Origin: Muribaculaceae bacterium
GTDB taxonomy: Bacteria > Bacteroidota > Bacteroidia > Bacteroidales > Muribaculaceae
Reading direction: 5' to 3'
Length of the DNA: 57,640 nt
Assembly (NCBI GenBank): GCA_017462345.1
Contig: JAFTRI010000015.1
Coordinates: 1 to 57,640, forward strand
Positions 13,618 to 53,749 of the stretch are shown here, piece after piece; position 1 is the stretch's first letter; each line of letters starts with the position of its first letter. Below the pieces are notes generated by a model. It was given only the letters and a program-made list of their open reading frames with translations, was not told where the DNA came from and did no database searches. Position numbers and translations under genes: made by a program.

Positions 13618-13872
13618 AAAAGGTGTTATTGTAATTATCTTCTCGATTCAAACTTGGCCGTATGAAACGTAGCGGAGATAGTTGACAATGGCACCTGCAC
13701 TGATTGTTATATCCACTGTCCTCGTGGCAGTTAAATATGGCAATATCGGTGTGGGGCTGTTGTTTTATCTGCTACACGGTAAGCCAAGACCTGAATCGAA
13801 GATAAGACAAAATACGATTCCCGCACCTTTTTATGTTTACAGGATAAACTGTTTCTTTGGGGATTGGGAAAC
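13618..13872 (+). promoter_or_regulatory. Structured 5' leader RNA, family copy A
   Basis: One of three related leaders in the window. Helices seen: closing AAAAGGTGT (13618-13626) with GCACCTTTT (13823-13831); TTATCTT (13635-13641) with AAGATAA (13799-13805); CGATTC (13644-13649) with GAATCG (13793-13798); CTTGGC (13653-13658) with GCCAAG (13783-13788); GTAGC plus AGATA (13669-13680) with TATCT plus GCTAC (13766-13775); GCACC near 13691 with GGTGT near 13748; inner hairpin ACTGTC with GGCAGT. A hairpin GTTTC/GAAAC (13851-13872) stands 13 bases before the ATG, and its loop GGGGAT (13859-13864) can pair with ATTCCC (13817-13822). Long blocks are identical to copy B (GGTGTGGGGCTGT, GGTAAGCCAAGACCTGAAT). 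Function unknown; cis-regulation of the 13886 operon is the likely role. Confidence 0.75.
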
Positions 13873-13885
13873 ATGATAAACTATT

Positions 13886-14347
13886 ATGAGAACAACTTTA
13901 GGCATCTTAATGATGATGCTTGGCGCGATGATACACGCGCAAGAGTATGAGAGTGTGACCATGACAATGGTCAACGGTTCGACTACAGTAGTAACATTGT
14001 CAGGAGAACCCACAATCAAATTCGCTGATGGTAAACTGATTATTGTTACGGGTGATGCAACAGCTGAGTTTGACCGTCAAAACATTCTGAGGCTCAATTA
14101 TAACGTTGTTGCCGGTGTGGAAAACATCAGTCGGGACAACACTACAATTGAGAATAACGGTAGTGCTTTGATCTTCAACAATCTTCCTTCGGACAGTGAT
14201 ATTATGGTCTATGACATGTCCGGCAGATTATTGAAAAACTATGTCGTGAATGGCAAGAGTTTTGAACTTCCGTTCGATAATCTTTCCAGCGGAATATACA
14301 TTGTGAGCGTTAACGGAATATCAACTAAAATTTCAGTAACACGATGA
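13886..14347 (+). CDS. Small secreted protein with type IX-like C-terminal domain
   Basis: The 153-residue product has a signal peptide (MRTTLGILMMMLGAMIHAQ), then a short beta-rich stretch of about 50 residues with the P-T-I-K-F and I-L-R-L-N-Y strands common in Bacteroidetes surface proteins, and a C-terminal domain of about 75 residues with the sorting-domain pattern (IMVYDMSGRLLKNYVV, LSSGIYIVSVNG, end KISVTR). There is thus almost no cargo between the signal and the sorting-like domain. It overlaps the next gene by four bases (ATGA), so both should be made from the same mRNA behind leader copy A. No enzymatic role is visible. Confidence 0.75.
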   Translation: MRTTLGILMMMLGAMIHAQEYESVTMTMVNGSTTVVTLSGEPTIKFADGKLIIVTGDATAEFDRQNILRLNYNVVAGVENISRDNTTIENNGSALIFNNLPSDSDIMVYDMSGRLLKNYVVNGKSFELPFDNLSSGIYIVSVNGISTKISVTR

Positions 14348-17118
14348 AAAAGATATCGTTTGCGTTAGCTGCACTTATTTCAATTGCGATAGCCTCAATA
14401 GCTTCAGATAATTCATCTTATGTTTGTGGCAATTTTGGCAACATTCTATCATTTGACGACAATGACATTGATAGTATTACATTGTCAAAAGTGGACATCA
14501 ACGGCGTTGAGCACAAAGGCTATGTCACTCAGATAATTCATGCCAAGGACAGTACTTATGTTGCCGAGATTTCAACTATTGACAGTATTTCTTTTGTCGC
14601 GCAGCCTCAGGTGACAGGCGATGAGAATATCTCACTCAATCAAGAGGTTGACCTGGGTCTGTCGGTAAATTGGGCTGGATGGGATATAGGCGCGTCGTCT
14701 CCCGAGGAAACAGGCGCATTGTTTCGCTGGGCGGAAATAGAGGAACAGGAAAATCCGAAAATAGAAGACTATTTCTTGTATATAGCCGAATCAGCTTCAA
14801 AGCCATGGAAATACGATTACGCTGACTTAAGATATAACATAAGCGGGACACAATGGGATGTGGCACGAAAACAATGGGGTGGCAGCTGGCGTATGCCGAC
14901 ACGCAAAGAGGCTGAAGAATTAGCTGATAAATGTACGTGGGAAATGTTGTCTTACAACAATGTAAAAGGATTTAAAATTACCGGACCCAATGGCAACAGT
15001 ATTTTCATGCCGATGACTTACATGGAGAGTGATACAACCATGTATGCCTATCGTTTTACCGGGACTGATGCTCAGACCGATAGACAATCAATGGGTGTTT
15101 ACACCAGTAACGGAAGAGCTTATGTTATCGAGGGCAGTTATGGTAAGTCGGATTATTATGAATACAACTATGCCGGTGGTAATGCAATGACTTATCCCTG
15201 TACAGCCCGATTGCCGGTAAGGGCCGTTAAGGGCGGAGAGCCTGAAAAACTTGCGTTGTTGCCGGAACTGACCTTCAATGCACAGCAAATCGTATATGAC
15301 AATGCCGAATATAATATATATCTATCGCAATGTCTCACCACAACCGACAGCTTGCAGACCGGGAGCTATCCCTATAAGAACGGTTGGGACTTAATGAGTA
15401 TCAACCGTCACCCGCAGTGGCGACGTCACTATGTTGACCTTGGAGTAAAAGCCAATTATGTAATAAGGGAAGCACGTAAGCTGAACAGCCTTAATTATGA
15501 ATTGATTGCCCGAACGTTGCGATTGTTATCGACCCAGTTGACCACCGATGCTTTTGGTGATATGCCGGATAACGAGTTCTATAATTATTATCATGACCTT
15601 ATGCGTCCGAGATTATACGCAGGCGAGGCGCCTCTTCCTGACTACGTGGGACAGACAGAGATATATAAGTGGATGTTCGTTGAACTCGACGAAATATTGG
15701 ATATGTATGAGGATGCAAGTGTGACAGGCAATCCCGACAATTTAGCAATAACCGCTGCCGAAGATTATATATATGCCGGCAACCTGACAGCGTGGAAAGG
15801 GTTGGCATACGCAATAAAAGCCCGCCTATTACTCCGTAATATCCCTAATGTCGACACAAGTTCTGCCAAGTGTCAGGAAATAATCGATTGTGCACAAAAA
15901 GCTATAGATGCATGGAAATCGGCATCAATGTTTGAAGATCCCTGGTTCGGTTGTGAACCACGCTTCTATTTCAGTGGAGGTATATACCGGCTGGATTATG
16001 CTGCTCCTGATTGTTCGCCCTGGAGCCCCGCACAGCCCATAATCAATTCGTGGGAGTCAAGAGGCAACCTATTGACATCGGCTGTCCCGTCCAAATTCTT
16101 TATAGAGGACTGCCTCGGAGTAGTCAATCCCGGTGTTGCTGCTACGAAAATGGGAGACTTAGGTGGTGCAGGCGTTTATCAGAGCTATAACGGTTATGGA
16201 ACTGACCCGAGACTTGCATTGTTACTGATCCCTAATTATGGACCTGTCTCATCTTCAGATGCTTCACGTACGGATCACCTTGCAATACGTTATCTTGAAA
16301 ATAATATCGGAACAAGTTCAAATGTTAAGCTGGCACACTATCCCGACCTTTATGCCGGGGCATACGCCCAGAATGATGGGTACAATCCTCTGTTCACAAT
16401 GGAAGAACTGTACTTCATTCAGGCTGAGGCTCACTATTGGATGGGAAATAAGGGTAAGGCAATGGAACTTGCTCGTGAGGCGACAGAGTATAACATCAAG
16501 CGTCATTTGACGCGTTTTCTGGATGACAATGGCGGTCTATATCCAGGTGTCGGAAACCGTACATCTTCATTATCCGTTGTGCAACAGAATGACCAAAGGC
16601 GTTGGGAACGGATGGTACGTGCATTCCTTTATAACATGGATAACGGTGATACCGAGTATACCCAAGGCACGTGGTTGGGAACCAAGCGCGGAAACACTAT
16701 TCCTGTAACCGAAATCGGGAATAAACATTGGTTCTTCAACGCTGAAGGATATTCACTGTATGACCTCATGACTCAAAAATATATAGCCATGTATATGCAG
16801 CCGGAACAGTGGACAGATATGAGACGCTACCACTTCAGTAACAATCGTAACGGATACGGAATTGGTGCGGATAAAGAGATTGTTTATCCTGCATTGCGCC
16901 GTCCTTATAATCTCTATTCCCCGCATTGGGTAGATGGACTGACCGATACTGAACAGGAAAACACTTGGATTCAGCGACTCAACTACGATCCGCAGATAAG
17001 CGGGCAATATGATAAAGACGAGTTGGAGAGAATCGGTGCATTAGACAATCCTGAATGGTTAAAGAAACCTATGATCTGGGCAGAACCGGCAGGCTCTCGT
17101 GCATCCTTGACTGAGTAA
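14344..17118 (+). CDS. FISUMP-like domain fused to a SusD/RagB-like domain
   Basis: This 924-residue exported protein has a signal peptide (MKKISFALAALISIAIASIA) and then a beta-rich start with the I-D-S-I-[ST] motif. A FISUMP-type segment (Fibrobacter succinogenes major paralogous domain) spans about residues 100-300, with VDLGLSVNWAGWDIGASSPE, WGGSWRMPTRKEAEELADKC and ARLPVRAVKGG. From about 310 to the end it resembles SusD-like proteins: tetratricopeptide-like helices, DAFGDMPDNEF, AWKGLAYAIKARLLL, and FTMEELYFIQAEAHYWMGNK. SusD proteins bind glycans at the outer membrane, normally as lipoproteins beside a SusC porin. Here no lipobox cysteine follows the signal peptide and no SusC gene is adjacent. 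The fusion is unusual; ligand unknown. Confidence 0.75.
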   Translation: MKKISFALAALISIAIASIASDNSSYVCGNFGNILSFDDNDIDSITLSKVDINGVEHKGYVTQIIHAKDSTYVAEISTIDSISFVAQPQVTGDENISLNQEVDLGLSVNWAGWDIGASSPEETGALFRWAEIEEQENPKIEDYFLYIAESASKPWKYDYADLRYNISGTQWDVARKQWGGSWRMPTRKEAEELADKCTWEMLSYNNVKGFKITGPNGNSIFMPMTYMESDTTMYAYRFTGTDAQTDRQSMGVYTSNGRAYVIEGSYGKSDYYEYNYAGGNAMTYPCTARLPVRAVKGGEPEKLALLPELTFNAQQIVYDNAEYNIYLSQCLTTTDSLQTGSYPYKNGWDLMSINRHPQWRRHYVDLGVKANYVIREARKLNSLNYELIARTLRLLSTQLTTDAFGDMPDNEFYNYYHDLMRPRLYAGEAPLPDYVGQTEIYKWMFVELDEILDMYEDASVTGNPDNLAITAAEDYIYAGNLTAWKGLAYAIKARLLLRNIPNVDTSSAKCQEIIDCAQKAIDAWKSASMFEDPWFGCEPRFYFSGGIYRLDYAAPDCSPWSPAQPIINSWESRGNLLTSAVPSKFFIEDCLGVVNPGVAATKMGDLGGAGVYQSYNGYGTDPRLALLLIPNYGPVSSSDASRTDHLAIRYLENNIGTSSNVKLAHYPDLYAGAYAQNDGYNPLFTMEELYFIQAEAHYWMGNKGKAMELAREATEYNIKRHLTRFLDDNGGLYPGVGNRTSSLSVVQQNDQRRWERMVRAFLYNMDNGDTEYTQGTWLGTKRGNTIPVTEIGNKHWFFNAEGYSLYDLMTQKYIAMYMQPEQWTDMRRYHFSNNRNGYGIGADKEIVYPALRRPYNLYSPHWVDGLTDTEQENTWIQRLNYDPQISGQYDKDELERIGALDNPEWLKKPMIWAEPAGSRASLTE

Positions 17119-17131
17119 AATCCATCTTGAC

Positions 17132-17179
17132 AAAAAAGCAGCCGTGTATTGTTTTCAGGTAATACACGGCTGCTTTTTT
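17132..17179 (+). terminator. Strong terminator after the SusD-like gene
   Basis: A 19-bp perfect stem (17132-17150 with 17161-17179) is bordered by A-run and T-run, so it may work in both directions. Confidence 0.9.
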
Positions 17180-17280
17180 ATTCCTACTATCTGACGGGAA
17201 CTATGGCTTGTATTTGCCGGTATGCTCGTAACGCTCTGTTGTAAACCAACCGGATTAATCCACAGAACCGGAATTTTTGT

Positions 17281-17350
17281 GCAATAAGCCTATTTTTGAC
17301 CAATAAACAAAAAACGCCCCTATTTTATGTACTATTTTGACCAATAAGCC
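17281..17350. repeat. Short intergenic direct repeats
   Basis: TATTTTTGACCAATAA at 17291-17306 is repeated as TATTTTGACCAATAA at 17333-17347, and AATAAGCC occurs at 17283-17290 and 17343-17350. The region 17180-17372 holds no gene that I can support. Confidence 0.6.
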
Positions 17351-17372
17351 GGATTTTGTCCCAGCTGTTTTG

Positions 17373-17413
17373 AAAAAAAAAAGCGCAACACGCTGATTAC
17401 TCGCCTGTTGCGC
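17373..17413 (-). terminator. Terminator of the tRNA gene
   Basis: On the minus strand, GCGCAACA (17413-17406) and TGTTGCGC (17390-17383) form an 8-bp stem followed by ten T residues. It ends the transcript of the tRNA gene at 17430-17503. Confidence 0.85.
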
Positions 17414-17429
17414 CTGCTGTTCCGTATCG

Positions 17430-17503
17430 TAGCGGGAACGAGAATTGAACTCGTGACCTCCGGGTTATGAATCCGACGCTCTAACCAACTGAGCTATCCC
17501 GCC
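17430..17503 (-). tRNA. tRNA-Met (CAT anticodon)
   Basis: The minus strand folds as a cloverleaf: acceptor GGCGGGA with TCCCGCT (first pair a G-T wobble, discriminator A), D-arm GCTC/GAGC, anticodon loop TTCATAA, T-arm ACGAG-TTCAATT-CTCGT. The anticodon is CAT and the first pair is not the C-A of initiator tRNA, so it reads as elongator tRNA-Met. A lysidine-modified tRNA-Ile2 also has a CAT gene anticodon and cannot be fully excluded. A promoter motif lies 20 bases upstream. CCA is not encoded. Confidence 0.95.
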
Positions 17504-17522
17504 ATCTATCGTTTTGCGAGTG

Positions 17523-17530
17523 CAAAGATA
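17523..17530 (-). promoter_or_regulatory. -7 element of the tRNA gene
   Basis: Minus-strand TATCTTTG matches TAnnTTTG; a CTTG near 17551-17554 sits at the -33 distance. Initiation near 17516 would give a short 5' leader before the tRNA. Confidence 0.65.
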
Positions 17531-17656
17531 GCGTTTATTATTTAATCACGCAAGTGATTTCACATAAAATTTTAGCGACAGTAATTTAATGTAGCGTGCA
17601 GAAATAATATATACGACATTTAATACGATATATAATTTCACCCTTGAGTTGTCTCA

Positions 17657-17691
17657 CAAATAAAGAGGATGCCTCGTTTTGAGACACCCTC
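17657..17691 (-). terminator. Terminator after glycogen phosphorylase
   Basis: On the minus strand a 9-bp stem (17691-17683 with 17673-17665, two wobbles) is followed by TTTATTTG. The rest of 17531-17656 holds no supported gene. Confidence 0.6.
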
Positions 17692-17715
17692 ATTGTATGG
17701 ATTATGTATCGGATA

Positions 17716-20280
17716 TTAGATCCAGCGGACGTATGCGAAGTCCTGACGGTGAGGCAGAGCCTCGTTCTTTGGATATATTCGGTAAGCATAGCGGAACACT
17801 CCGGCATCCTTGAGCGTTTCAGACAATTCATAAGTAATGATATTGCCTTCCTCTTTCACAATGTTAAACTGGATTGTTTCCCACAGCTTTTCTTCTCCAT
17901 TTTCCTGCTTGTAGATTACATTTTCTACTCCGAGGTCTTTGCCAAGACCGTTAGTGTCGAGAGTGATTGTTATCTTGTAACCCTGTCCTGTACAATTGTT
18001 GTTATTGCGCAGTTCATCAGGAATACATACATCAAGTACCTTTACTCCATCCCAAGCGGCTGCAACTTTTTCTTTCCATGCAACAATTTCACGAGCTTTG
18101 GCATAGTCTTTAGCTTTAAGTTGTTTGGTGCGTGCAGCTTCCTTATTGTAGAAGCGATCAATATAATCATCAATCATGCGCTTCATTGTGAAGTTAGGGG
18201 CAATGTGACCAATAGATCCCTTGATGTATTGAATCCATTCAGGAGAATATCCCTTAGAGTTCTTGGCGAAATACAACGGGATGATTTCGTTCTCGAGCAT
18301 CGAATAAATTGTGGCGGCATCAAGTTTGTCCTGCTGTGCCTGATCGGTGAAAGTGCGTTTGTCGGTAAGGGCCCAACCGGCTTTTTCATTAAAACGGTAA
18401 CCTTCATACCACCATCCGTCAAGTACCGAGAAGTTAAGGACGCCATTCATTTCAGCTTTTTCTCCAGATGTCCCTGACGCTTCGAGTGGACGAGTGGGCG
18501 TATTCAACCAGATGTCCACCCCGGTAACAAGACGTTTAGCCACAATCATGTTGTAGTCTTCAAGGAAAATAATCTTGCCAAGGAATTGTGGCATGCGTGA
18601 AATTTCCATGATACGCTTAATGAGCCCCTGACCTGCGCCATCGGCGGGATGAGCCTTACCGGAGAATACAAATTGAACAGGGAACTGTTCGTTGTTTACA
18701 ATCTTCGCAAGACGTTCAAGGTCGGTAAAGAGAAGGTGTGCACGCTTGTAGGTTGCAAAACGACGTGCAAACCCGATTATAAGGGCATTGGGATTAATTT
18801 TGTCAACTATTTTCATTACGGCAGCCGGATCTCCCTGGTTTGCAAGCCATTTTGCCTTGAAGTCACGTTTGACAAAATTGATGAATTTGTTTTTGAGACG
18901 CATACGCATTTCCCAGATTTCCTCATCCTTAACCTTGAAGATTCCTTCCCATGCCTTGGGGTTACTTTGGTCTTCAAATACCTGTGTGCCGAGTTTCTTT
19001 GCATAAAATTCCTTCCACTCGGAAGCTGCCCAAGTGGGCATGTGCACACCGTTGGTTACATAACCTACATGAGATTCCTGCCAATTGTAGCCTTTCCATA
19101 TCCCGGCAAACATTTTCTTGGAGACTTCACCATGCAGCCAACTTACACCGTTGGCTTCCTGGCAAGTGTTCAACGCAAATACACTCATAGAAAAACGATC
19201 GTTAGAACCGGGATTCTCGCGCCCCATATTCATGAGATCAGCCCATTCTATGCCAAGCTTTGCGGGGAATTCATTCATGTACTTATAGAACAGTCCTTCA
19301 TCAAAGTAATCATGGCCGGCGGGAACGGGAGTGTGAACCGTGTAAAGACTTGATGCACGAACCATTTCCATTGCGACATTGAAATCAAGGTGTTCTTCCT
19401 GAACATAATCGACAAGGCGCTGTAGGTTCAATAATGCAGCATGGCCTTCATTGCAATGGAACAATTCAGCCTTTATGCCAAGTTTCTTGAGCATAAGGAC
19501 GCCACCAATACCCAAAAGATACTCCTGCTTGATGCGGTTTTCCCAATCGCCACCATAAAGCTGATGTGTTATAGGCCGGTCAAATTCACTATTCATATCG
19601 AAATCGGTATCCATCAGATACAGATTCATGCGACCCACATTCACGCGCCATACATGAGAATAAATTATACGGCCGGGGAACGGTACTTCAAGAATCATCG
19701 GTTTTCCATCGGCTTCACATACCTGTTCAATGGGCAGTTGGCTGAAATTCTGAGGCTCATAATTTGCTATCTGTTGGCCGTCAACTGAAAGGGTCTGTGT
19801 AAAATAGCCATGACGGTAAAGGAATCCGACTGCAGTCATGTCGATACAGCTATCAGATGCTTCCTTGATGTAGTCTCCGGCAAGTACGCCAAGACCTCCT
19901 GAATATATCTTGAGAGCGTTACAAAGACCGTATTCCATTGAAAAATATGCAATCGAAGGAACATCTTTGCGCATAGGTTTCTTCATATATTCTTTGAATG
20001 AGGTGTAGACGCTATCGATGCGTTTCAATAATACTTCATCAGCAAGGATCTCCTGTAAACGTTCGAAACTGAGCTGTTGCAATACCATAACCGGATTTTC
20101 GCCGGTAGCACGCCACAAGTCAGGATTAAGTTCACGGAAAAGAGACTTGGCCTCACTATTCCATACCCACCAGAGATTTTTTGCCAACTCTTCAAGCGGT
20201 TTGAGTTTTGAAGGCAAGTCAGATTTTACAGTAATGTCACGCCAAACGGGTGCATTAGTGTTGCTTACTTGTAGTTTCAT
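17716..20280 (-). CDS. glgP: Alpha-glucan (glycogen/starch) phosphorylase
   Basis: This cytosolic GT35 enzyme releases glucose 1-phosphate from alpha-1,4-glucan ends. The 854-residue product is the short bacterial/archaeal phosphorylase type: AKNLWWVWNSEAKSLF near the start, IAYFSMEYGL, GGLGVLAGDY, and the PLP site SGEKAEMNG with the cofactor lysine at K608. The N-terminal allosteric sites of muscle phosphorylase are not present in this type. It lies 47 bases downstream of the glycogen synthase gene on the same strand, so the two form a turnover pair: one builds, the other degrades the storage polymer. Confidence 0.95.
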   Translation of the reverse strand: MKLQVSNTNAPVWRDITVKSDLPSKLKPLEELAKNLWWVWNSEAKSLFRELNPDLWRATGENPVMVLQQLSFERLQEILADEVLLKRIDSVYTSFKEYMKKPMRKDVPSIAYFSMEYGLCNALKIYSGGLGVLAGDYIKEASDSCIDMTAVGFLYRHGYFTQTLSVDGQQIANYEPQNFSQLPIEQVCEADGKPMILEVPFPGRIIYSHVWRVNVGRMNLYLMDTDFDMNSEFDRPITHQLYGGDWENRIKQEYLLGIGGVLMLKKLGIKAELFHCNEGHAALLNLQRLVDYVQEEHLDFNVAMEMVRASSLYTVHTPVPAGHDYFDEGLFYKYMNEFPAKLGIEWADLMNMGRENPGSNDRFSMSVFALNTCQEANGVSWLHGEVSKKMFAGIWKGYNWQESHVGYVTNGVHMPTWAASEWKEFYAKKLGTQVFEDQSNPKAWEGIFKVKDEEIWEMRMRLKNKFINFVKRDFKAKWLANQGDPAAVMKIVDKINPNALIIGFARRFATYKRAHLLFTDLERLAKIVNNEQFPVQFVFSGKAHPADGAGQGLIKRIMEISRMPQFLGKIIFLEDYNMIVAKRLVTGVDIWLNTPTRPLEASGTSGEKAEMNGVLNFSVLDGWWYEGYRFNEKAGWALTDKRTFTDQAQQDKLDAATIYSMLENEIIPLYFAKNSKGYSPEWIQYIKGSIGHIAPNFTMKRMIDDYIDRFYNKEAARTKQLKAKDYAKAREIVAWKEKVAAAWDGVKVLDVCIPDELRNNNNCTGQGYKITITLDTNGLGKDLGVENVIYKQENGEEKLWETIQFNIVKEEGNIITYELSETLKDAGVFRYAYRIYPKNEALPHRQDFAYVRWI

Positions 20281-20327
20281 AAACTAATAAATAATTTGGT
20301 TGTTAATTTCGTTACTATAAAAACATA

Positions 20328-31875: not shown

Positions 31876-32652
31876 CTATTCGATGATTTCCCAAGTAAAA
31901 GTAATGGTTTGAGTTTCACTACCACCTATGTATTCGGTCACAGATGTAGGATAGCCGTTTTCATCAAATTCATAGCTCCAGGCATAATCATCAGATCCGT
32001 CAGAAGCGTCTTGAGGGAGGTGTATGGGCGTAATGCCGAAAAATCCCTGCATAACGAGGACGGGTTCAAAATCATCGTACAGCATATCGTTAGAATCTAC
32101 AACGAAGCCCACAATCCGTCCATAGTCATACCCGTCAGAGTATCTGTAAGTAGCATGGTATGTTGCCGGTTCGTCAGACCACTTGGTAGAAGTTTTCATG
32201 ATATCACCCGTGCTCCATTCAAAGGTCTTGTTTGAACCATCGTTCTCGCGCCATTTTGAAATGCGCCCTTCGTCATAGGAATATATTATTTCTCCCTCCA
32301 GCTCTGAAATCAGACCATTGTTCAGACAATAATTTTCCGTGGAGGAATTTCCATAGGAATAGGTTTCAGTCACAGAAATATGCGAAGATGAATAGGTGTA
32401 AGTCGTGGTTTTATCTGTCTGACCATTATAAACTCTGACAATTTGATCAATTAGACCATTGGCGTCGTATTGGATGTTGCAGTGATAGCCGTAGCTGTAT
32501 TTTACCGAGGTCAGACGTTTTTCAACGCTCGGCTTCGGCACATCAGGCACATCGGATGTTGGTTCGTCCATGTCATCATCGCTACACGAAGAGAAGTTGA
32601 CACTAGCAAGCACTGCACAGAGTGCCAACGCAAGAAATTTATATTTTTTCAT
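31876..32652 (-). CDS. Lipoprotein with RHS/YD-like beta strands (DUF4595-like)
   Basis: The 258-residue product has a lipoprotein signal (MKKYKFLALALCAVLASVNF then SSC), with the lipid-anchored cysteine at C23 followed by S-D-D-D-M-D-E-P, an acidic stretch that in Bacteroidetes favours surface export. The mature part is made of repeated short strands of the type Y-x-Y-D-x-N-G-L-I-x-x-I and YSYDEGRISKW, as in the DUF4595 lipoproteins common in gut Bacteroidales. No catalytic motif is seen. It is a single gene with its own terminator, led by structured leader RNA copy B. Confidence 0.75.
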   Translation of the reverse strand: MKKYKFLALALCAVLASVNFSSCSDDDMDEPTSDVPDVPKPSVEKRLTSVKYSYGYHCNIQYDANGLIDQIVRVYNGQTDKTTTYTYSSSHISVTETYSYGNSSTENYCLNNGLISELEGEIIYSYDEGRISKWRENDGSNKTFEWSTGDIMKTSTKWSDEPATYHATYRYSDGYDYGRIVGFVVDSNDMLYDDFEPVLVMQGFFGITPIHLPQDASDGSDDYAWSYEFDENGYPTSVTEYIGGSETQTITFTWEIIE

Positions 32653-32666: not shown

Positions 32667-32926
32667 GTTCCTCAATCCCCTGCGGAACAGCTAAGTTATT
32701 AGACAAAAAAGGTGTAGGGATTGTATCTCTGTCTTATCCTGTATTCAGGTCTTGGCTTACCTACTGCACAGATAAGATGACAGCCCCACACCGATTGAGC
32801 ATATACATTATGCCCGTCACGGGCATGGGTATAGCTACCGATGTAGGTGCCATCGAATTTTTCTTCGTGCAGTTTTCAGACGGCCAAGTTTGAATACAGA
32901 AGATAAAATTTCAATAACACCTTTTT
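32667..32926 (-). promoter_or_regulatory. Structured 5' leader RNA, family copy B
   Basis: Helices, given as plus-strand positions: closing AAAAAGGTGT/ACACCTTTTT (32917-32926 with 32706-32715, 10 bp perfect); TTATC/GATAA and GTATTC/GAATAC (32892-32897 with 32741-32746); CTTGGC/GCCAAG (32883-32888 with 32751-32756); ACTGCAC/GTGCAGT (32867-32873 with 32763-32769); GCACC/GGTGT; inner hairpin ATGCCCG/CGGGCAT. A hairpin GTTCC/GGAAC (32684-32688 with 32667-32671) precedes the start codon, and its loop GGGGATTG (32680-32673) is complementary to CAATCCCT (32723-32716). Compared with copy A the helix bases differ but pairing is kept (for example CGATTC/GAATCG against GTATTC/GAATAC). Confidence 0.75.
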
Positions 32927-44372: not shown

Positions 44373-44383
44373 TAATCCCGAGG

Positions 44384-46274: not shown

Positions 46275-48818
46275 TCAGAATGTAAAATGTAAGGCTATTC
46301 GTATTCCTCTTTTATCGGCGTTGTATGTGTCCCGGTATGATAATCTCCAAACATAGTCCACGCGTAATACCTTGAATATGTTTTCAATTCCAACACCTAT
46401 TTCCATGTATGGTGTTTTTCCCATGTTTCGTGTCTCCGTATTATCCGGAAATAAGAAAAGGTCTTTATTTATCAATGGGTTGTTTTTGTTACTTAGCTTT
46501 CCGTATATTCCTCTAAATGAGAACACTTCTCGCAGCTTTAGTTTTTTGAAATATGGTATGTAATTGAATATTGCACCGTTGGCCCAATAGGTCAAATCCC
46601 AAGACACATAGCTGTCATTGATGAACTCCATCGGATTCATCAGTGCATAGCTCTCTGGTTGTATAGTGTAGGATAAATTAGCGTTTGGGATCAAGAGGTC
46701 GGGGTACGGAGCTTTGTTCCAGATATGTCCTGCCTTAACAATAATATCAGTATATCCAAATGCGGAAAACCAGAAACGTTTCTGTACGCTGAATTCCGTC
46801 TTGTTGATTGTGTACATGCTGCCTAAAAATTTCATAGGAGCGAATGAATGAGACAGAATGAATATAGGTGCATCTTTGTTTATCGGATAGCGATAGCTTT
46901 TGGTCTGATAAAATTTTTCACCCGGAGCATAGCGTAATTGGATATCTAACGACGTTTCATCATAATGAGAAAACCGTTCTCCATATCCGTTAATAAACGG
47001 CGAATATATTGTTGCCTCTTGCCGCTCATGGGTAATACCGGCAGTCAGCGAAAAGTTGTTCAGGAGTTCCAGATTATATTCAAACTTCGATACCCGATGA
47101 TATGTCACTTGCGTATCGTCATGACGTTTTAGCGACAAGAAAATATTGTCCATATTAGTGAACATATAGTGCTGCCCTATCATGTCGACATCATACAAAT
47201 GCGATAATTTCAGTGAATGTACAGGAAATTCACGAGAGTGATACTTCTTGTCGTGAAACGAATATTCGAGTTCTCCGTTATACTTGAATTTATTGTCCTT
47301 TGTTCCGTATGCAACATAGCCACGGGCAAATAGCCGCTTGTTCAGATTGGCTGTTGTAATACCCCCAACTCTAAATCGTGCACCTTCAATAGTATTTCCG
47401 CTTATCACGGTATTCATAGGCCCAAAATCCCACTTACTGTCTGTCCCGGTAGACAGATAACCGGATACGAGTATTTTCAATACTTTTTCCGTCCAATAAT
47501 ATAGTGGGACAGAACGCATTTTGGAAACAAAATTCCCAATTTTTCGATCCTTGTCCGAAATTGGGATAAGGCGGTTTTCTTCCCAATATTCCATCGGATG
47601 GATATATGCATCTTCTGTCACAAAACTTTTCCGAGGGTGATTGAATATAGCTGAATCATTAAGCTCTTTGAAATTATGTCCGTGATATGCGGTATTCCTT
47701 CTTGCATAAAGTCCCTGCATTCCGGGCAATACACTGACTTCCACAATCATATCATCTTTCGTCTTTAGCCGGCTTCCATCTGATGCCCTGACGTATTCCT
47801 GAGACAAATACATCTGTTCAATGAAATTCAGATTGATGGAATGAGGAACATTCATTGTCACCTTTTTTATAAACATTGTTGAGTCGTTCTCCGGTACATA
47901 AATGCGTCCGGTAAAGCCGAAAGATTGAGAATTATGAGGGACAAAACTTAATTCAACACATCGTTCACCATCAACATCGATCGTATCAGTCAAATAAAAT
48001 TTATAAAAGTTTGTGGCAATTTTGGACAGGGGGCTGACGAACCGATTCTGAAGGATATTTATATCGTTTTGGTATAAATCTATCTCCCGAAATACATCCT
48101 CAAGGAATATCTGCATGCTTTCCTGATCAGTAATATCATCCAATCCTGCTCTACGTATTCCGGTAACTCTTTCCTTTTCCGCTTCCGGATGTTTCCTGTA
48201 ATGTACATCACTCACTTTTTCCTTAACCGAAACATTAAGTATCGGTTTCCCGGATACTTCAGATGTATCGACATGGTCTTTGAGGAAAGGGAACTTCTTA
48301 AATAGCCAATTTTCACGGCTTTTATCAGTGAAATTATTTAAACCGAGTGTTATTTTCTCATACTTGTTGTAATTGTAGTTATCATGTCGACGAGGGTTTG
48401 TCAATTCTTGTCGTGCCATGATTTTTTCAACAAATATTACTGCCGGATTATTTTTTTTTGAATACTTCTCTTTTTGGGGTTTTACAACAACTTCTTTCAA
48501 GTTTATACCGACAGGCGACATGTCGACGATTATGCGTCTGTCGGAAAGCCCGCATTCTTTTGTCCTGTATCCCATCGACGATATTATAAGAATCCCGTTA
48601 TGGGATGATGTGCTCAAATCGAATCGTCCCTTATCGTCAGCAAGGACTCCCCTGTCAGTCCCCTTGATAAAAATAGCGGCGTATGGAATCGGCTCATGGG
48701 TCAGAGAGTCTCTGACCGTTCCTGAAATTTGACTGATTCCATTTTGTGCGACAGCCTCTAAGGAAGACAGTCCCCAATAAATGAGACACAAAATCAGTAT
48801 TGTATATTTCAATCGCAT
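46275..48818 (-). CDS. DUF5686 outer-membrane protein with carboxypeptidase-like regulatory domain
   Basis: The 847-residue protein has a signal peptide (to about residue 25), an N-terminal CarboxypepD_reg-like beta sandwich (about 28-115, ISGTVRDSLTHEPIPYAAIF, GRFDLSTSSHNGIL) and then the long DUF5686 region that ends in outer-membrane strands, with terminal aromatic residue (IALHFTF). Such proteins look like TonB-receptor relatives without a plug. Their role is not known; an involvement in outer-membrane transport or biogenesis is only inference. It is monocistronic and divergent from the CYTH gene. Confidence 0.88.
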   Translation of the reverse strand: MRLKYTILILCLIYWGLSSLEAVAQNGISQISGTVRDSLTHEPIPYAAIFIKGTDRGVLADDKGRFDLSTSSHNGILIISSMGYRTKECGLSDRRIIVDMSPVGINLKEVVVKPQKEKYSKKNNPAVIFVEKIMARQELTNPRRHDNYNYNKYEKITLGLNNFTDKSRENWLFKKFPFLKDHVDTSEVSGKPILNVSVKEKVSDVHYRKHPEAEKERVTGIRRAGLDDITDQESMQIFLEDVFREIDLYQNDINILQNRFVSPLSKIATNFYKFYLTDTIDVDGERCVELSFVPHNSQSFGFTGRIYVPENDSTMFIKKVTMNVPHSINLNFIEQMYLSQEYVRASDGSRLKTKDDMIVEVSVLPGMQGLYARRNTAYHGHNFKELNDSAIFNHPRKSFVTEDAYIHPMEYWEENRLIPISDKDRKIGNFVSKMRSVPLYYWTEKVLKILVSGYLSTGTDSKWDFGPMNTVISGNTIEGARFRVGGITTANLNKRLFARGYVAYGTKDNKFKYNGELEYSFHDKKYHSREFPVHSLKLSHLYDVDMIGQHYMFTNMDNIFLSLKRHDDTQVTYHRVSKFEYNLELLNNFSLTAGITHERQEATIYSPFINGYGERFSHYDETSLDIQLRYAPGEKFYQTKSYRYPINKDAPIFILSHSFAPMKFLGSMYTINKTEFSVQKRFWFSAFGYTDIIVKAGHIWNKAPYPDLLIPNANLSYTIQPESYALMNPMEFINDSYVSWDLTYWANGAIFNYIPYFKKLKLREVFSFRGIYGKLSNKNNPLINKDLFLFPDNTETRNMGKTPYMEIGVGIENIFKVLRVDYVWRLSYRDTYNADKRGIRIALHFTF

Positions 48819-48870
48819 TAATCAGTCTACGTTTTGTCTCAGGTACTCTTATTATCAAGAAAACAATTTT

Positions 48871-48886
48871 TATCTTTGCAAAGTTA
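48871..48886. promoter_or_regulatory. Overlapping divergent promoters
   Basis: TATCTTTG at 48871-48878 (plus, for the CYTH gene) abuts TAACTTTG read on the minus strand at 48886-48879 (for the DUF5686 gene). The two -7 elements touch, so polymerase cannot occupy both at once. Confidence 0.6.
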
Positions 48887-48966
48887 AGGATTAATTGTGG
48901 AAGAATTTTAGTGTTAATGATTCATTTAGCTTTTTAATGGTTTAATTAGAAAGGATTTCAACTAAA

Positions 48967-49419
48967 ATGGCAAAAGAAATAGAAAGGAAATTCCTGGTGG
49001 TAAATGAGTCTTACAAATTATCGGCCAGTAGGATTGATGATTTAAAACAAGGATATATTTCTTTACAGAAAGAATCAACTGTAAGAATAAGGATAAAAAA
49101 CGATTCGGCTTTTCTGACAATAAAAGGCATGACAATGGGTATGACACGCGATGAGTGGGAATATGCGATACCGGTGGATGCTGCAGAAGAAATGTTGTCT
49201 AAAATAGCATGTGGCAGGATAATTGACAAAACCCGATATATAGTGCCTTACGGCAATCATACGTGGGAAATAGATGAATTTCACGGATACCATGAAGGGC
49301 TTGTTGTTGCCGAAATCGAATTGAAGGCAGAGGATGAATCATTTCCCCTGCCCCCTTTCATTGGAAAAGAAGTAACCGGCGATGCGGCATATTATAATTC
49401 CACGCTTGCCGGGAATTAG
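48967..49419 (+). CDS. CYTH-domain protein (triphosphate tunnel enzyme-like)
   Basis: The 150-residue product starts with EIERK (residues 4-8), the E-x-E-x-K motif that defines the CYTH/triphosphate tunnel family. Later strands TVRIRIKNDSAFLTIKG and WEIDEFHGYHEGLVVAEIEL hold the charged residues lining the tunnel. Bacterial members are often inorganic triphosphatases (NeuTTM type, EIERKFLV start), so hydrolysis of triphosphate is likely, although in vivo role is open. The stop overlaps the 3' end of the convergent rlmD gene. Confidence 0.92.
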   Translation: MAKEIERKFLVVNESYKLSASRIDDLKQGYISLQKESTVRIRIKNDSAFLTIKGMTMGMTRDEWEYAIPVDAAEEMLSKIACGRIIDKTRYIVPYGNHTWEIDEFHGYHEGLVVAEIELKAEDESFPLPPFIGKEVTGDAAYYNSTLAGN

Positions 49420-50828
49420 GCTTTCAATGTAAGTTTGACAACATTCTCGACATGGTGGGTATGAGGAAACATGTCAACAGGTTGGATTGCATCAACCCTG
49501 TATTTGCCGTCAAGTAAGGCGAGATCTCTTGCTTGAGTTGACGGATTGCAGCTTACATATACAATGCGCCCGGGAGCAGCTTTTAATATTACGTCAACAA
49601 CATTCTGATGCATGCCTGCACGTGGGGGATCCACAATCATCACATCGGGATGCCCATGCTGTTCTACAAACTCGTCGGTCAATACATCTTTCATGTCGCC
49701 GGCAAAGAATAATGTATTGTCAATATTGTTTACTGCTGAATTAAGCTTGGCATCCTCGATTGCTTCCGGTACATATTCTATTCCAATCACCTTTTTGGCT
49801 TGTCGCGAGATGAAATTAGCTATTGTTCCGGTTCCGGTGTAAAGGTCATATACCAGTTCGTCACCTGTCAATTCCGCATAATTGCGAGCTACCTTATACA
49901 ATTCGTATGCCTGGAGGGAATTTGTCTGATAGAACGATTTGGGGCTTATGCGGAACCGTAAACCTTCCATCTCTTCTTCGATATAAGGCTTGCCGTAGAA
50001 TGTCGCAATCTCCTGATCAGATATGGTATCGTTGACTTTTAGGTTTATAACGTATTGTAGTGATGTGATTTGAGGGAAATTATCTTTTATCGCTTCGAGC
50101 AACGGTACAATATGTTGCATATTGTTTTCCCCGAATACCATAACAGCCATGATTTCTCCTGTCGAGGAAATTCTTATCATCAGTGTACGCAGCAAACCCT
50201 GCTGAGCGCGTAAATCATAAAAACTGTAGCCATGTTGTTTGTCATAATCCTTTACAAATAATCTTAACCTATTACCGAAATCATCCTGTAAGTGGCATTT
50301 CTTTATATCAAGCACTTTGTCAAATGCTCCGGGAATATGGAAACCGGCTGCATTGCGGTCGGGGAACTCTTCTCCGCTACGCATTTGCTCGTATGTCAGC
50401 CAGCATTTGTTTGAGAAAGTGTATTCCATCTTGTTCCGGTACTCCCAGATGTTTTTAGAGCCGAGAATTGGCGAGATCTCCGGGATATTCACTTTTGCAA
50501 TACGTTCAAGCGCATCCTTGACTTGTTGCTGCTTACACTTTAATTGAAATTCGTATGGTAAATGTTGCCATCGGCAACCTCCACATGTGCCGAAATGCTC
50601 GCATCTCGGCTCGATTCTTATCGGTGATGGCGTTATAATCTTCTCAATATGGGCTTCGGCGTATGATTTTTTCTTTTTATCGACCTTAATATCTACAATG
50701 TCGCCCGGTGCTCCATACGGAATGAACACCACCATATCATTCACGCGGGCTATGCTGTTACCCTCTGCCGCTACGTCCGTTATTTCCACCGCCTTTATTT
50801 GTGGCAGTTCTTTACGTCTTCTTGCCAA
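49416..50828 (-). CDS. rlmD: 23S rRNA (uracil-C5)-methyltransferase, RlmD/RumA type
   Basis: The 470-residue SAM-dependent enzyme methylates a uracil of 23S rRNA. It has an N-terminal TRAM domain (about 14-68), four cysteines for an iron-sulphur cluster (C76, C82, C85 in RCEHFGTCGGC, and C in DIKKCHLQ), the SAM-binding DLYTGTGTIANFIS, VDPPRAGMH, and the catalytic cysteine in VSCNPSTQARDLALL. It is not certain whether the target is U1939 or U747. It has its own -7 element at 50853-50860. Confidence 0.93.
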   Translation of the reverse strand: MARRRKELPQIKAVEITDVAAEGNSIARVNDMVVFIPYGAPGDIVDIKVDKKKKSYAEAHIEKIITPSPIRIEPRCEHFGTCGGCRWQHLPYEFQLKCKQQQVKDALERIAKVNIPEISPILGSKNIWEYRNKMEYTFSNKCWLTYEQMRSGEEFPDRNAAGFHIPGAFDKVLDIKKCHLQDDFGNRLRLFVKDYDKQHGYSFYDLRAQQGLLRTLMIRISSTGEIMAVMVFGENNMQHIVPLLEAIKDNFPQITSLQYVINLKVNDTISDQEIATFYGKPYIEEEMEGLRFRISPKSFYQTNSLQAYELYKVARNYAELTGDELVYDLYTGTGTIANFISRQAKKVIGIEYVPEAIEDAKLNSAVNNIDNTLFFAGDMKDVLTDEFVEQHGHPDVMIVDPPRAGMHQNVVDVILKAAPGRIVYVSCNPSTQARDLALLDGKYRVDAIQPVDMFPHTHHVENVVKLTLKA

Positions 50829-50852
50829 TTTTATCAGATTTTATATTTCTTG

Positions 50853-50860
50853 CAAAGTTA
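50853..50860 (-). promoter_or_regulatory. -7 element of rlmD
   Basis: Minus-strand TAACTTTG about 25 bases before the rlmD start. Confidence 0.45.
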
Positions 50861-50908
50861 GCAATTCATCGCAACAGATAAAAATTATCTCTTACTAACA
50901 ACCCCCGA

Positions 50909-50951
50909 AAAGAAATCAGTGGCTGCGCCATATTGAATGGCGTAACCACTG
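50909..50951 (-). terminator. Terminator after the LRR protein gene
   Basis: CAGTGG and CGCCAT (50951-50933 on the minus strand) pair with ATGGCG and CCACTG around a five-base loop, with one small internal loop, followed by ATTTCTTTTC. Confidence 0.7.
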
Positions 50952-50982
50952 ATCGGGATTATTGTTGTGTGTTTTGTGCTGA

Positions 50983-53481
50983 CTATCTGATAACGACCTT
51001 GTGGGCATTGCTGCCGAGACGTAGGATATAGATGCCCGCTTTCAGTGGCAACTCCATGTATTCGGTAGCGCAGCCACTGTACAGCACGCGCCCGTTCATG
51101 TCGGCAAGCATCACCGGAGTGCTGCCGTCACCGTTCACCACTAACATCCCACGGATTACGCTGTAAGATACAAGGCTATCATCGTCATTGACCGCTTCTA
51201 CCCCGGCAATAGTACTGAATGTACCTGTGTACTGCGACAACACCGCTTTCGCCTCATCATACGCTGTTATACGGTAATAATAGCCGGTAGAAACCGAAAG
51301 ACCGGTTACCGTCGCCGACATCTGCGTTGCGGCTTGCGTCATTACCTGTCCGCTTTGGTCGACCTCCATACTACCCACTTGCTGCGTCATCGCTGCATCT
51401 GAGTAAACCCCTATCTCATAGCTTGACGCCCCATCTTCCTGTTCCCATGACAATGTTACCGCTTCCGATTGCGGTGTCACCGTTACATTATTCTCGTTGA
51501 GCAACGAGGCGAACTGAGCCACAAGTGTGTGGCTCTCCGTCACGGTAAACGAGTACTTGGAGTCGGTGGTGAGCAACTGTCCGTCCTCATACCATCCCAC
51601 GAAAGTATAGCCCGAATGTGCTATCGCCTCCATCTCTGCGGTTGCTCCAGGCTCATACTGGTTGATGCCAAGTATCTCACCACCGTTATCTATGCTCTTG
51701 GCAACCGACACTGTCAGCGGTGCTTCCTCCTCGATGAAGTAGAAATATTTCCACCCGTTGGCTATCGAGTAGTACTGCTTGCTGTTGTGTGGCACATGCA
51801 GTGTGCAACCAAATTGGTTCACACCCGTAAAGCTTGTCTCGTAGGCACTCGGTGGCAACGCTCGCTTCACGTAGAGGTCTGTCAGACCGTCACAACCGTA
51901 TAGGGCATTCTCCTTGACACCCTTTATGGTAGTAGGCAACGTCAGTTTCTCGATCATAGAGCAATTGTACAACGCACCGTAAGGTAGCTGCTCGCACCCC
52001 TCGCCAATCACCAGTTCTTTCAGCCCCGTAGGCAGATAATATGTCTTTGCAGTCCCATCCTCCATCAGCTGAGTCACTGCCCGCATATTAGAGTTCACGG
52101 CCGTCCCGAACAGTTCTCCGAAATTGCCCACAGTCTGAGCTGTCCCCGCACCCGCAAACGGAAGCTCCAAATATTTCAGATTTTTCAATCCCCAAAAGCA
52201 GCATTGAGATAATGATTTTGCATTTGGCAAACACAATGTATCCAATGCCAAACATCCGCGGAATGCGTGTGAAACATAATCTATTTTACTTGAATTCGAT
52301 GATTCATAGTATATATGACTATCAACATTCACTTTTCCCAATATTTTTACTGATTGTAATGATGTACAGCCGTAAAACTCATCATATCCGATATAAGTTA
52401 GCGACTTCGGTAATATTATTGAAGACAACGACGTACAGCCAGAAAATGCACTACTCCCTATTGTTGTTACAGAATTAGGAATATCTATCGTTTTTAACGA
52501 TGTGCATCCAGAAAATGCACTATTCCCTATTGTTGTTACAGAATTAGGAATATCTATCGTTTTTAACGATGTGCATCCAGAAAATGCACTATTCCCTATT
52601 GTTGTTACAGAATTGCCAAGTTTCACAGTATTTAGATATGTACAGTCGCTAAATATAGCATTCGGAATATCTGTTACACTGTTACCTATGGTTACTTCTC
52701 TCAACATGTTACATTCTAAATCTCCTCTTTCTACATCAGTATATACTATTGAAAGATTACGACCAATATATATTGTATTAATATTAACTCGATAATAGGT
52801 GGTATATGCGTTTTCGGTATAAGTGTCGCTAAATATTGCCGACGAGTCAATTGTTAGAGGTGCTTCACCATCCTCCATTACAATATCAGATAAATAATTT
52901 CTGCCAAAAGCACGTTTTCCAATGCTTTTCAGAGTGTTAGGAATAGTTAGACTTAATATCCCACATCCATAAAACGCATCTTGTTTTATTTCAGTAATAT
53001 CCTCCGGTATAACTAAATTTGATATGCGTTCACCATTTAAAACCAAATTGCCGTAACCGTCTTGAAAAAGACGGCCCTCAAAAGTTATTTTACACCAAGC
53101 TGACAGGTTCTTAATATGTACTTTTCGAATGCGTGTAAGGCTAAATGTATTTGCTCCAATGTAGCCTAAGGTTTCCGGCAAATATATCTCCGTCATATTT
53201 TCACAATGGCTAAAAGCCTTGTCAAATATATTATATACCCCTTCGTTTATTTTTGCAATTTTTATATATTCCTTTAATGTTTCCCATGGGCATCCGTCTC
53301 TATCACTCCACCACATGTATTCCGAGCCGGTAATTTCAAATACACCTGTTTCCGAGTCAAGTGTCCATGCTAACCCTCCATCGGAAGAGCATGTTCCGGA
53401 ATATACTTCGGCATGGACCATTTTGATTGCAAAGATTGCTGTAAACATCGTTAGGAACAGTCGTAAATTTTTCATATGCAT
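50983..53481 (-). CDS. BspA-type leucine-rich repeat surface protein with CTD
   Basis: The 832-residue exported protein has a signal peptide (MHMKNLRLFLTMFTAIFAIKMVHA, split MHMKNLRLFL, TMFTAIFAIKMVHA), then LRR_5 repeats of about 23 residues (about 90-430 and 455-560) of the kind I-G-x-S-A-F-S-G-C-T-S-L-x-x-I-x-[IL]-P. A bacterial-repeat unit (about 585-655, GYTFVGWYEDGQLLTTDS), an FN3-like unit (about 660-750), and a type IX-like C-terminal domain ending HKVVIR follow. BspA-type LRR proteins bind host matrix or other bacteria in some species; the ligand here is unknown. Two consecutive repeats are identical in DNA. The gene is preceded by leader copy C. A second ATG two codons in is possible. 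Confidence 0.88.
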   Translation of the reverse strand: MHMKNLRLFLTMFTAIFAIKMVHAEVYSGTCSSDGGLAWTLDSETGVFEITGSEYMWWSDRDGCPWETLKEYIKIAKINEGVYNIFDKAFSHCENMTEIYLPETLGYIGANTFSLTRIRKVHIKNLSAWCKITFEGRLFQDGYGNLVLNGERISNLVIPEDITEIKQDAFYGCGILSLTIPNTLKSIGKRAFGRNYLSDIVMEDGEAPLTIDSSAIFSDTYTENAYTTYYRVNINTIYIGRNLSIVYTDVERGDLECNMLREVTIGNSVTDIPNAIFSDCTYLNTVKLGNSVTTIGNSAFSGCTSLKTIDIPNSVTTIGNSAFSGCTSLKTIDIPNSVTTIGSSAFSGCTSLSSIILPKSLTYIGYDEFYGCTSLQSVKILGKVNVDSHIYYESSNSSKIDYVSHAFRGCLALDTLCLPNAKSLSQCCFWGLKNLKYLELPFAGAGTAQTVGNFGELFGTAVNSNMRAVTQLMEDGTAKTYYLPTGLKELVIGEGCEQLPYGALYNCSMIEKLTLPTTIKGVKENALYGCDGLTDLYVKRALPPSAYETSFTGVNQFGCTLHVPHNSKQYYSIANGWKYFYFIEEEAPLTVSVAKSIDNGGEILGINQYEPGATAEMEAIAHSGYTFVGWYEDGQLLTTDSKYSFTVTESHTLVAQFASLLNENNVTVTPQSEAVTLSWEQEDGASSYEIGVYSDAAMTQQVGSMEVDQSGQVMTQAATQMSATVTGLSVSTGYYYRITAYDEAKAVLSQYTGTFSTIAGVEAVNDDDSLVSYSVIRGMLVVNGDGSTPVMLADMNGRVLYSGCATEYMELPLKAGIYILRLGSNAHKVVIR
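52472..52609 (-). repeat. Two perfect 69-bp tandem repeats inside the LRR gene
   Basis: Units 52472-52540 and 52541-52609 are identical over 69 bases (23 codons, one LRR turn). The preceding 33 bases (52439-52471) match the end of a further unit with one change. Confidence 0.95.
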
Positions 53482-53490
53482 AAAATTGGT

Positions 53491-53749
53491 GCCTCCTGTG
53501 TCCCCGAATTTGGCGGTTAATAAAATTTTTGGTGTTCTAAAATGCGAAAGGCGTAGGACATTGCCGGTTTATTTACATAGAGGCATCGCCAAACGCCTAA
53601 GTCTACAATAAACAGCCCACCCACGCCAATTATATATCGTCACCCGCTTGTATGGGTGGGATATACAACAAGCAAAGGCGTTTTCACTGCTAATCCTGTA
53701 GACTTTGAAAATTGGCGATTTTCTATGTAAGGATAAAGCGAAACGCTTC
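53491..53749 (-). promoter_or_regulatory. Structured 5' leader RNA, family copy C (divergent)
   Basis: Same plan as copies A and B but with mostly different bases. Given as minus-strand sequence and plus-strand positions: closing GAAGCGT (53749-53743) with ACGCCTTTC (53554-53546, two bulges); TTTAT with ATAAA and TTACATAG with CTATGTAA (53730-53723 with about 53580-53573); ATCGCC with GGCGAT (about 53719-53714 with 53589-53584); AAGTCTACA (53705-53697) with TGTAGACTT (53607-53599); ACGCC (53681-53677) with GGCGT (53627-53623); inner hairpin CACCC/GGGTG. GGGCTGTTTAT is kept as in A and B. TGTCCT (53560-53555) can pair with the start-proximal GGGGACA (53505-53499). The gene start is at 53481. 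Confidence 0.65.

Follow-up and report, generated by a model that had tools for sequence, protein, structure and literature searches.

In gut Bacteroidales, numerous genes for surface proteins and other accessory functions are, to our knowledge, without known control, and a contig of a Muribaculaceae bacterium (GenBank assembly GCA_017462345.1, contig JAFTRI010000015.1) raises the question of what kind of element might govern them. In the window, that is the whole stretch of 57,640 nucleotides analysed here, three stretches (A, B and C) had been described as copies of one structured leader RNA of about 200 nt, standing in sense orientation before genes of secreted or lipid-anchored proteins. 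What such a leader comprises, how widely it occurs and what it could do for the genes behind it are addressed here.

The three copies are present in the orientation claimed, in sense and directly 5' of open reading frames (ORFs), and their predicted folds include the helices named in the preliminary description. Compared with 200 dinucleotide shuffles, the folding energies gave z-scores of -7.55 (A), -6.26 (B) and -5.34 (C), and no shuffle folded as well as A, B or C (0/200 each). The length had been underestimated: copies A and C are headed by a TAnnTTTG promoter box and a 5' hairpin, and another hairpin (H3) at the 3' end is part of the leader, which measures about 330 nt. Its core is a module of four strands that can pair either as two hairpins or as a long rod. 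On the forward strand, copy A begins with the promoter box (13554..13561) and the 5' hairpin (13571..13601), both assigned from the sequence, followed by the module at 13617..13832 (210.4 bits with model R1, and a predicted fold) with strands 1, 2 and 3 at 13618-13631, 13686-13695 and 13747-13759 and strand 4, including a U-tract, at 13815-13832. H3 follows at 13851..13872, placed by comparing segment 4a (13815-13822) with its complement, strand 5 (GGGGATTG, 13859-13866), and then an ORF of 153 aa with a Por_Secre_tail domain (13886..14347). Copy B, on the reverse strand, has only a variant promoter box, TATCTTCG; its module lies at 32706..32926 (250.2 bits with R1, for which B is a training copy, and a predicted fold), H3 at 32667..32688 (4a 32717-32723, strand 5 32673-32679) and the downstream ORF of 258 aa (DUF4595) at 31876..32652. 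Copy C, also on the reverse strand, consists of the promoter box (53805..53812) and 5' hairpin (53764..53797), again read from the sequence, the module at 53545..53752, delimited by model scores and predicted fold, and an H3 with a 3-bp stem, GCC/GGC (53491..53514), placed by the 4a:strand 5 comparison (4a TGTCC, 53556-53560; strand 5 GGGGACA, 53499-53505); behind it stands an ORF of 832 aa of the LRR_5 (BspA) type (50983..53481).

Two models were used to look for relatives. R1 was trained on A, B and two further copies from the same genome, D and E, with C left out, and R2 was trained without A, B and C; they are not fully independent, since the copies that trained R2 were originally found with R1. 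Copy C was missed when R1 scanned the window with default filters, and it scored 36.4 bits with R1 when filters were off; under R2, copies B, A and C scored 61.4, 39.5 and 32.1 bits. Scored by two models, neither of which had been trained on it, C is a true relative. Three copies were an undercount, as R2 gave 13 matches in the genome itself at E <= 1e-5, including L009 and L011, on which it had been trained; the E-values of both models are rough. One more stretch of the window, 3096-3302, scored 29.1 bits with R1; reverse-strand scores with this model run from 22 to 34 bits because rods are self-complementary. A search of further genomes, which the preliminary description had proposed, gave R1 matches in 97 of 198 Muribaculaceae genomes and R2 matches in 51 of 295 Bacteroidales genomes, and a pattern scan of named genomes returned 83 stretches. 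Cultured isolates with copies include Muribaculum caecicola, Barnesiella sp. WM24 and Palleniella intestinalis. A single alignment of all subfamilies (475 columns, with three reverse-strand rows) was set aside in favour of R1 and R2, and alignment A13, of 23 selected sequences, served for inspection only.

The leader had been thought to belong to no known class, and an Rfam scan of the window, copy B included, indeed found only tRNA at the gathering score. Permissive scans of A and C (E <= 10) returned chance-level matches only, with no cobalamin or other Rfam match above that level; the supposed likeness to a B12 box is not supported. Ten diverged loci, scanned permissively too, yielded DUF805b once, one tRNA and two matches under the cut-off. 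Among 20 loci scanned, three reached the gathering score for these motifs (DUF805b, RF02914, in L035 and L036; DUF805, RF03081, in L147) and 17 held neither; the window had no match, and the best in its genome was 14.8 bits for DUF805b, under the cut-off. The three loci are short relatives of the leader that end in a DUF805 or DUF805b motif, which there takes the place of H3 past the rod. Both motifs (clan CL00115, Cis-reg) resemble the leader in being short cis-regulatory elements, but their Rfam models, of 35 and 68 positions, exclude the rod. Nine bases of the motif complement the rod in L035 and L036, a length equalled in 8/200 and 4/200 shuffles, and in L147 the complementarity is unremarkable. 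The DUF805 motifs reportedly stem from a comparative study of 2017. A search by term of PMC12247911, PMC8040213 and PMC7366714 gave no passage that describes the element, nor did the full-text literature searched, mostly open papers, and the terms are absent from PMC2965389; an unnamed earlier prediction might still lie among the thousands of predicted RNAs in the supplements of PMC8040213. We apparently deal with a leader RNA of many gut Bacteroidales genomes, found before unrelated accessory genes and new to the literature.

By their complementarity the four strands can join either 1:2 and 3:4, as tandem hairpins I and III, or 1:4 and 2:3, as a single long rod. The helix covariation claimed earlier holds for the rod, in which 95.1% of cells are paired across 79 copies and 43 of 71 pairs are doubly changed, against 27.0 in shuffles (0/500 as high). 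The two-hairpin fold is conserved as well: paired cells amount to 99.1% in hairpin I and 98.2% in hairpin III, with double changes in 5/17 and 12/25 pairs against 1.9 and 4.3 in shuffles (0/500 as high), statistics that, like all our shuffles and permutations, ignore relatedness among copies. The outer stem of hairpin I has no double change. RNAalifold picked the two-hairpin fold unprompted from the 79 copies, and the C-type and X-type copies retain both folds. A leader that needed only the rod, as a passive structured 5' UTR acting as stabiliser or protein landing site, would make the second fold a relic of tandem duplication, and the likeness of strand 1 to 3 and of 2 to 4 in the alignments is what such a duplication would leave. 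The rod is moreover the calculated minimum in 71/79 copies, on average 12.3 kcal/mol below the two-hairpin fold when the contact between loops is excluded, so that hairpin III may be merely transient. Pairs found only in the two-hairpin fold nevertheless covary, as in AUCUUC/GAAGAU, of which the rod leaves the 3' half unpaired, and so does the 4a:5 pairing described below; we regard a passive role as improbable. The preliminary interpretation stands as to a conserved, covarying and uncatalogued leader in many copies, and is not supported as to the B12 likeness, the surface protein regulon, which takes in only some of the downstream genes, and the rod, which is one of two folds retained.

Hairpin III ends like an intrinsic terminator, with a U-tract of at least five in 66/79 copies, although the U-tracts of C-type copies are poor. 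In the rod, the U-tract also pairs with an A-run in strand 1; in L018, L058 and L070 this pairing is kept and the U-run is broken. Segment 4a, a bulge of strand 4 that is unpaired in the rod and hidden by pairing in hairpin III, has its complement in strand 5, which forms part of the loop of H3, the last hairpin before the start codon, and is thus a candidate for a third pairing. The observed sum for 4a:5 covariation was reached in 0/5000 permutations, for A and for X, again with relatedness disregarded; among C-type copies, own 4a:5 pairs were better than swapped ones in only 2/9, and H3 was found by a 4-bp criterion in just 2/9. The surroundings are regular, with the promoter box at most 110 nt before the rod in 72/79 type-A copies and the start codon 45-70 nt past it in 60/79.

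These features suggest, as read from sequence, an on/off switch employed repeatedly for a variety of genes, and the best reading is a bistable attenuator or translational switch common to them. That the leader is a regulated attenuator, a self-contained module before single accessory genes with hairpin III off and the rod on, has in our judgement about an even chance. Against it weigh the lower calculated energy of the rod, the C-type copies with their poor U-tracts and weak 4a:5 preference, the few copies with a broken U-run and the outer stem of hairpin I, which lacks double changes. The module would comprise promoter, 5' hairpin, an RNA switch of about 215 nt and a 3' hairpin adjoining the start codon. 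Hairpins I and III would fold first, during transcription, and hairpin III with its U-tract would halt RNA polymerase in the off state; a contact between loops I and III (CUUGGC:GCCAAG) may seed the shift to the rod, which would remove strand 4 from the terminator. Strand 5, synthesised after the U-tract, could not prevent termination; after read-through, 4a would dock on H3 by the start codon and either hold the on state or set ribosome access. A switch of translation without regulated termination, in which the choice between rod and hairpin III sets 4a:5 pairing and hence ribosome access, seems clearly less probable, at perhaps one chance in four. It would fit the conserved, covarying 4a:5 pairing, the exposure of 4a in the rod alone, the position of H3 immediately before the start codon and the poor U-tracts of C-type copies, yet it leaves the canonical terminator-like ends with long U-tracts of many X-type copies unexplained, and the GGRGG of H3 is in most cases separated from the start codon by 20-30 nt, a distance too great for a simple Shine-Dalgarno sequence, a role that we rejected.

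An attenuator of this kind would resemble those of the trp type in its four competing strands and its terminator-like last hairpin followed by a U-tract. Unlike them, it lacks a reading frame conserved through the rod (the lengths of the 79 rods are spread over the three frames as 31, 25 and 23 copies; any frame open throughout in only 6/79), and it alone has the long-range 1:4 rod and the downstream bulge-loop contact. By eye, one frame is open through much of the leader of copy A; the family as a whole does not preserve this frame, and a conserved upstream ORF was rejected. Riboswitches share with the leader its size, its position and alternative folds beside an expression platform, but the leader has no shared pathway downstream, no Rfam match and no ligand assigned to it.

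The genes behind the leader were surveyed by Pfam and PADLOC scans of 71 of the 79 downstream ORFs, short or uncertain ones (L044, L045, L054, L059, L060, L070, L074 and L099) being left out; some proteins may be wrong because in 19/79 the script chose a start whose distance from the rod is not within 45-70 nt. LRR proteins (LRR_5) form the largest group (14/71); TerB, YcxB, LytTR and caspase-like proteins and many without a Pfam match also occur, so that the surface protein regulon proposed earlier accounts for only some of the downstream genes. By eye, small HTH proteins were seen downstream as well. A link with defence was rejected, since PADLOC gave a single or weak match for each of six models among the 71 proteins, the best being caspase, and no clear theme.

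Leaders up to 98.4% identical stand before unrelated ORFs, a leader and the one most similar to it have homologous genes behind them in no more than 7/79 cases, which marks the genes as accessory and swapped, and 732 of the 733 pairwise alignments longer than 150 nt end by +82 past the rod. Such borders might also be left by a mobile or recombination site of MITE or integron kind, foldable for DNA exchange and not for RNA control. One copy (L102/L213) follows RadC within a series of short ORFs that share one orientation and are flanked on either side by a tyrosine-recombinase gene. In gene arrangement this setting is similar to the rAID clusters of Bacteroidales, in which a tyrosine recombinase is reported to accompany short genes of one orientation, with conserved motifs in the intergenic regions (PMC12247911). 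Unlike those clusters, copies A, B and C have housekeeping genes as neighbours and no recombinase, and no integrase was found among 17 window proteins scanned. The sense orientation, the fixed spacing of promoter box and start codon and the compensating base-pair changes in highly divergent copies speak against a DNA-level site, and homologous recombination between leaders accounts for the swaps equally well; we hold such a site to be unlikely. In the switch reading, the module would be exchanged as a unit among unrelated genes. The fuller picture, a modular promoter-borne switch with strand exchange between kissing hairpins and rod, bulge-loop readout and deeply diverged subfamilies, a switch that a genome often carries more than once and that is swapped as a unit, is put forward tentatively, at somewhat under even chances.

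If true, a switch swapped among unrelated accessory genes would place newly gained genes under one common signal, and it may show how acquired genes come under control. Its two covarying, mutually exclusive folds open the mechanism to direct testing by mutation and compensation. With matches in roughly every second Muribaculaceae genome sampled, before genes of LRR surface proteins and many others of unknown role, the switch would offer a handle on when these genes are used.

The preliminary description had placed three structured leader RNAs in the window, and copies A (plus strand), B and C (both minus strand) are indeed present as first described, sense to open reading frames (ORFs) starting at 13886 (+), 32652 (-) and 53481 (-). 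Their structured character is borne out by folding z-scores of -7.55 (A), -6.26 (B) and -5.34 (C). With copy A as query, blastn recovered two further copies, D and E, together with B in the genome of origin (GCA_017462345.1). A covariance model, R1, was trained on A, B, D and E; copy C, left outside the training set, reached 36.4 bits with filters off. Four weaker matches to R1 in the same genome (L009–L012) have, by eye, the architecture of the leader. L009 and L011 later entered the training set of a second model, R2, under which L010 scores 22.6 bits; L012 is absent from the R2 matches, so it is counted as a member on its R1 score (20.3 bits) and by inspection. L009 (G000 contig 13, 28061–28306) is of the X-type subfamily, with a terminator-like end of U8 or more; no downstream ORF was located there by script, and the adjoining downstream sequence resembles, by eye, a reversed transposase gene. 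Within the window, positions 3096–3302 (+) also match R1, probably by chance, and the 29.1 bits of this match indicate that the E-values of R1 are too optimistic.

The covariance-model search over relatives proposed with that description found further copies in the genus, the family and the order. Under R1, whose E-values, like those of R2, are rough, 10 of the 12 genomes in the genus have matches at E≤1e-5 (two of the matches listed being reverse-strand; R1 gives the reverse strands of rods, the long fold of the leader, 22–34 bits), as do 97 of 198 family genomes and 25 of 30 genera at E≤1e-9, with at most six in any genome, and, at E≤1e-10, 27 of the order's 295 genomes (17 of 184 genera; 15 families, counted by hand from the table). 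R2, trained on ten X-type copies with A–E all excluded, recovered all five, gave 13 matches in the genome of origin, and matched 11 of 12 genus genomes at E≤1e-5; at E≤1e-8 it reached 51 of the order's 295 genomes, which belong to 34 of the 184 genera and, counted by hand, to 26 families. It also recovers 27 of 31 loci from other subfamilies and lineages, missing L012, L115, L142 and L143. The two models are not fully independent, since the R2 training copies came from R1 searches. A pattern scan of named genomes yielded 83 stretches, mostly in metagenome-assembled genomes labelled Muribaculaceae, Porphyromonadaceae, Bacteroides or Bacteroidales; isolates include Muribaculum caecicola, Barnesiella sp. 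WM24 and Palleniella intestinalis.

The layout was read from the 79 copies of the type-A subfamily. A promoter box, TAnnTTTG, lies at most 110 nt upstream of the rod in 72 (median 61 nt), a U-tract of at least five is present in 66, the distance from rod to start codon is 45–70 nt in 60, and no reading frame is conserved through the rod. Directly upstream of the box, L041, L043, L044, L045, L046, L052, L053 and L055 have in common, by eye, TAGCCCC(A)CCAATAACATTTTT, which lies where a -33 element would be expected and might be bound by a regulator or a sigma factor. A 5' hairpin (window 13571–13601, and the equivalent position of other type-A copies) often carries, by eye, a TAGAG or AAAGAG loop on a variable closing stem.

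Two incompatible folds are written into these sequences. In the rod, strand 1 pairs with 4 and strand 2 with 3. Aligned to R1, the type-A copies have standard pairs in 95.1% of cells and double changes in 43 of 71 pairs, against a shuffle mean of 27.0 (0/500 as high), numbers that lean towards the rod because the alignment was fitted to it; a shift of the partner by at most three columns lowers the paired fraction to 39.5–47.5%. RNAalifold found rod helices P2 and P3 unprompted in MAFFT alignments of nine C-type and eleven X-type copies, the X-type fold also retaining a three-pair stem of hairpin III. On the 79 type-A copies its preference was not the rod but the alternative, tandem hairpins I (strands 1 and 2) and III (strands 3 and 4, with the U-tract). 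Each aligned on its own, hairpin I is paired in 99.1% of cells, with double changes in 5 of 17 pairs (shuffled mean 1.9), and hairpin III, 98.2% paired, has double changes in 12 of 25 pairs (shuffled mean 4.3); 0/500 shuffles reach either value. The support for hairpin I comes from its inner AUCUUC/GAAGAU stem, the 3' half of which is unpaired in the rod, its outer stem having no double change in these copies. When the 5' and 3' parts were folded separately, both hairpins appeared in all nine C-type and 10 of 11 X-type copies (hairpin I with z between -0.1 and -3.4, hairpin III between -1.6 and -4.8); truncated L032 fits poorly. The loop of hairpin I contains CUUGGC or CUUCGC in many copies, with the complement at the top of hairpin III, and the loop region folds on itself at -1.0 kcal/mol or better in 75 of 79 type-A copies, and not in every case in this register.

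By calculation the rod is the minimum in 71 of 79 type-A copies, the two hairpins averaging 12.3 kcal/mol above it with the loop contact left out; for C- and X-types, too, the complete fold lies below the sum of its parts. In L018, L058 and L070 (type-A), compensating changes preserve the A-run:U-run pairing of the rod and disrupt the U-tract; in them the evidence favours the rod and argues against a terminator.

A third pairing joins 4a, a segment of strand 4 (e.g. AAUCCUC), to strand 5 (GAGGAUU), which lies in the loop of H3, the last hairpin before the start codon; 4a is a bulge in the rod and part of hairpin III in the alternative. The helix has at least 6 bp in 67/79 A, 7/9 C and 14/20 X copies, and beats shuffled downstream sequence in 77/79, 9/9 and 17/20 and the average over swapped-in downstream parts in 53/79, 2/9 and 15/20, respectively, the C copies saying little because they are alike in that region. 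In A and X alike, 0/5000 permutations of downstream parts among copies reach the observed sum, in a test that ignores relatedness. An H3 stem of at least 4 bp surrounds strand 5 in 76/79 A (46 distinct stems), 19/20 X and 2/9 C copies, and in 225/540 shuffled controls. Three short members carry an Rfam motif downstream of the rod, DUF805b (L035, L036) or DUF805 (L147). Nine motif bases are complementary to the rod in L035 and L036 (equalled by 8/200 and 4/200 shuffles) and the complementarity in L147 is unremarkable (195/200), so that such pairing is only hinted at.

Since both incompatible folds covary, the second hairpin is terminator-like and a third contact lies near the start codon, the leader is best read as a conformational switch. 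From the sequences we infer termination, switching, an order of events and a signal; attenuation followed by a lock at H3 has about an even chance of being the form this would take, and a switch of translation alone is the less likely form.

Like the pairings, layout and distribution, the swapping of genes behind the leader can be read directly from the sequences. Pfam scanning of 71 of the 79 proteins downstream of type-A leaders gave LRR_5 (14), TerB (4), DUF4595 (3), Por_Secre_tail (2) and YcxB (2), the remainder having families seen once each or no match. The most similar leader precedes a homologous gene in just 7 of 79 cases, and L041 and L043 are 98.4% identical across 320 nt with unrelated ORFs. 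Among 733 pairwise alignments longer than 150 nt between 39 copies, ends lie at a median of +38 from the rod, 732 by +82, and starts mostly at or past the promoter, one extending to -878. In five of six relatives valS adjoins the next ORF of the genome of origin (amylase-like; both identified by eye) without leader or LRR gene, and in the sixth (G006) a different ORF is found. At the PPDK site, a TRAM methyltransferase gene adjoins PPDK (both by Pfam) in three of six relatives, a C-type copy is present in G001 and another stretch in G006, G009 being left out of the reading. In L102 (G026 contig 24, 5609–13047) and L213 (Muribaculum caecicola), a RadC gene is followed by the leader and short co-oriented ORFs, some recurring in changed order, flanked by two tyrosine-recombinase genes; this resembles a gene-cassette or rAID-like array. 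Small HTH-like proteins, recognised by eye, follow the X-type leaders L011, L027 and L280; the leader's targets may thus include regulators.
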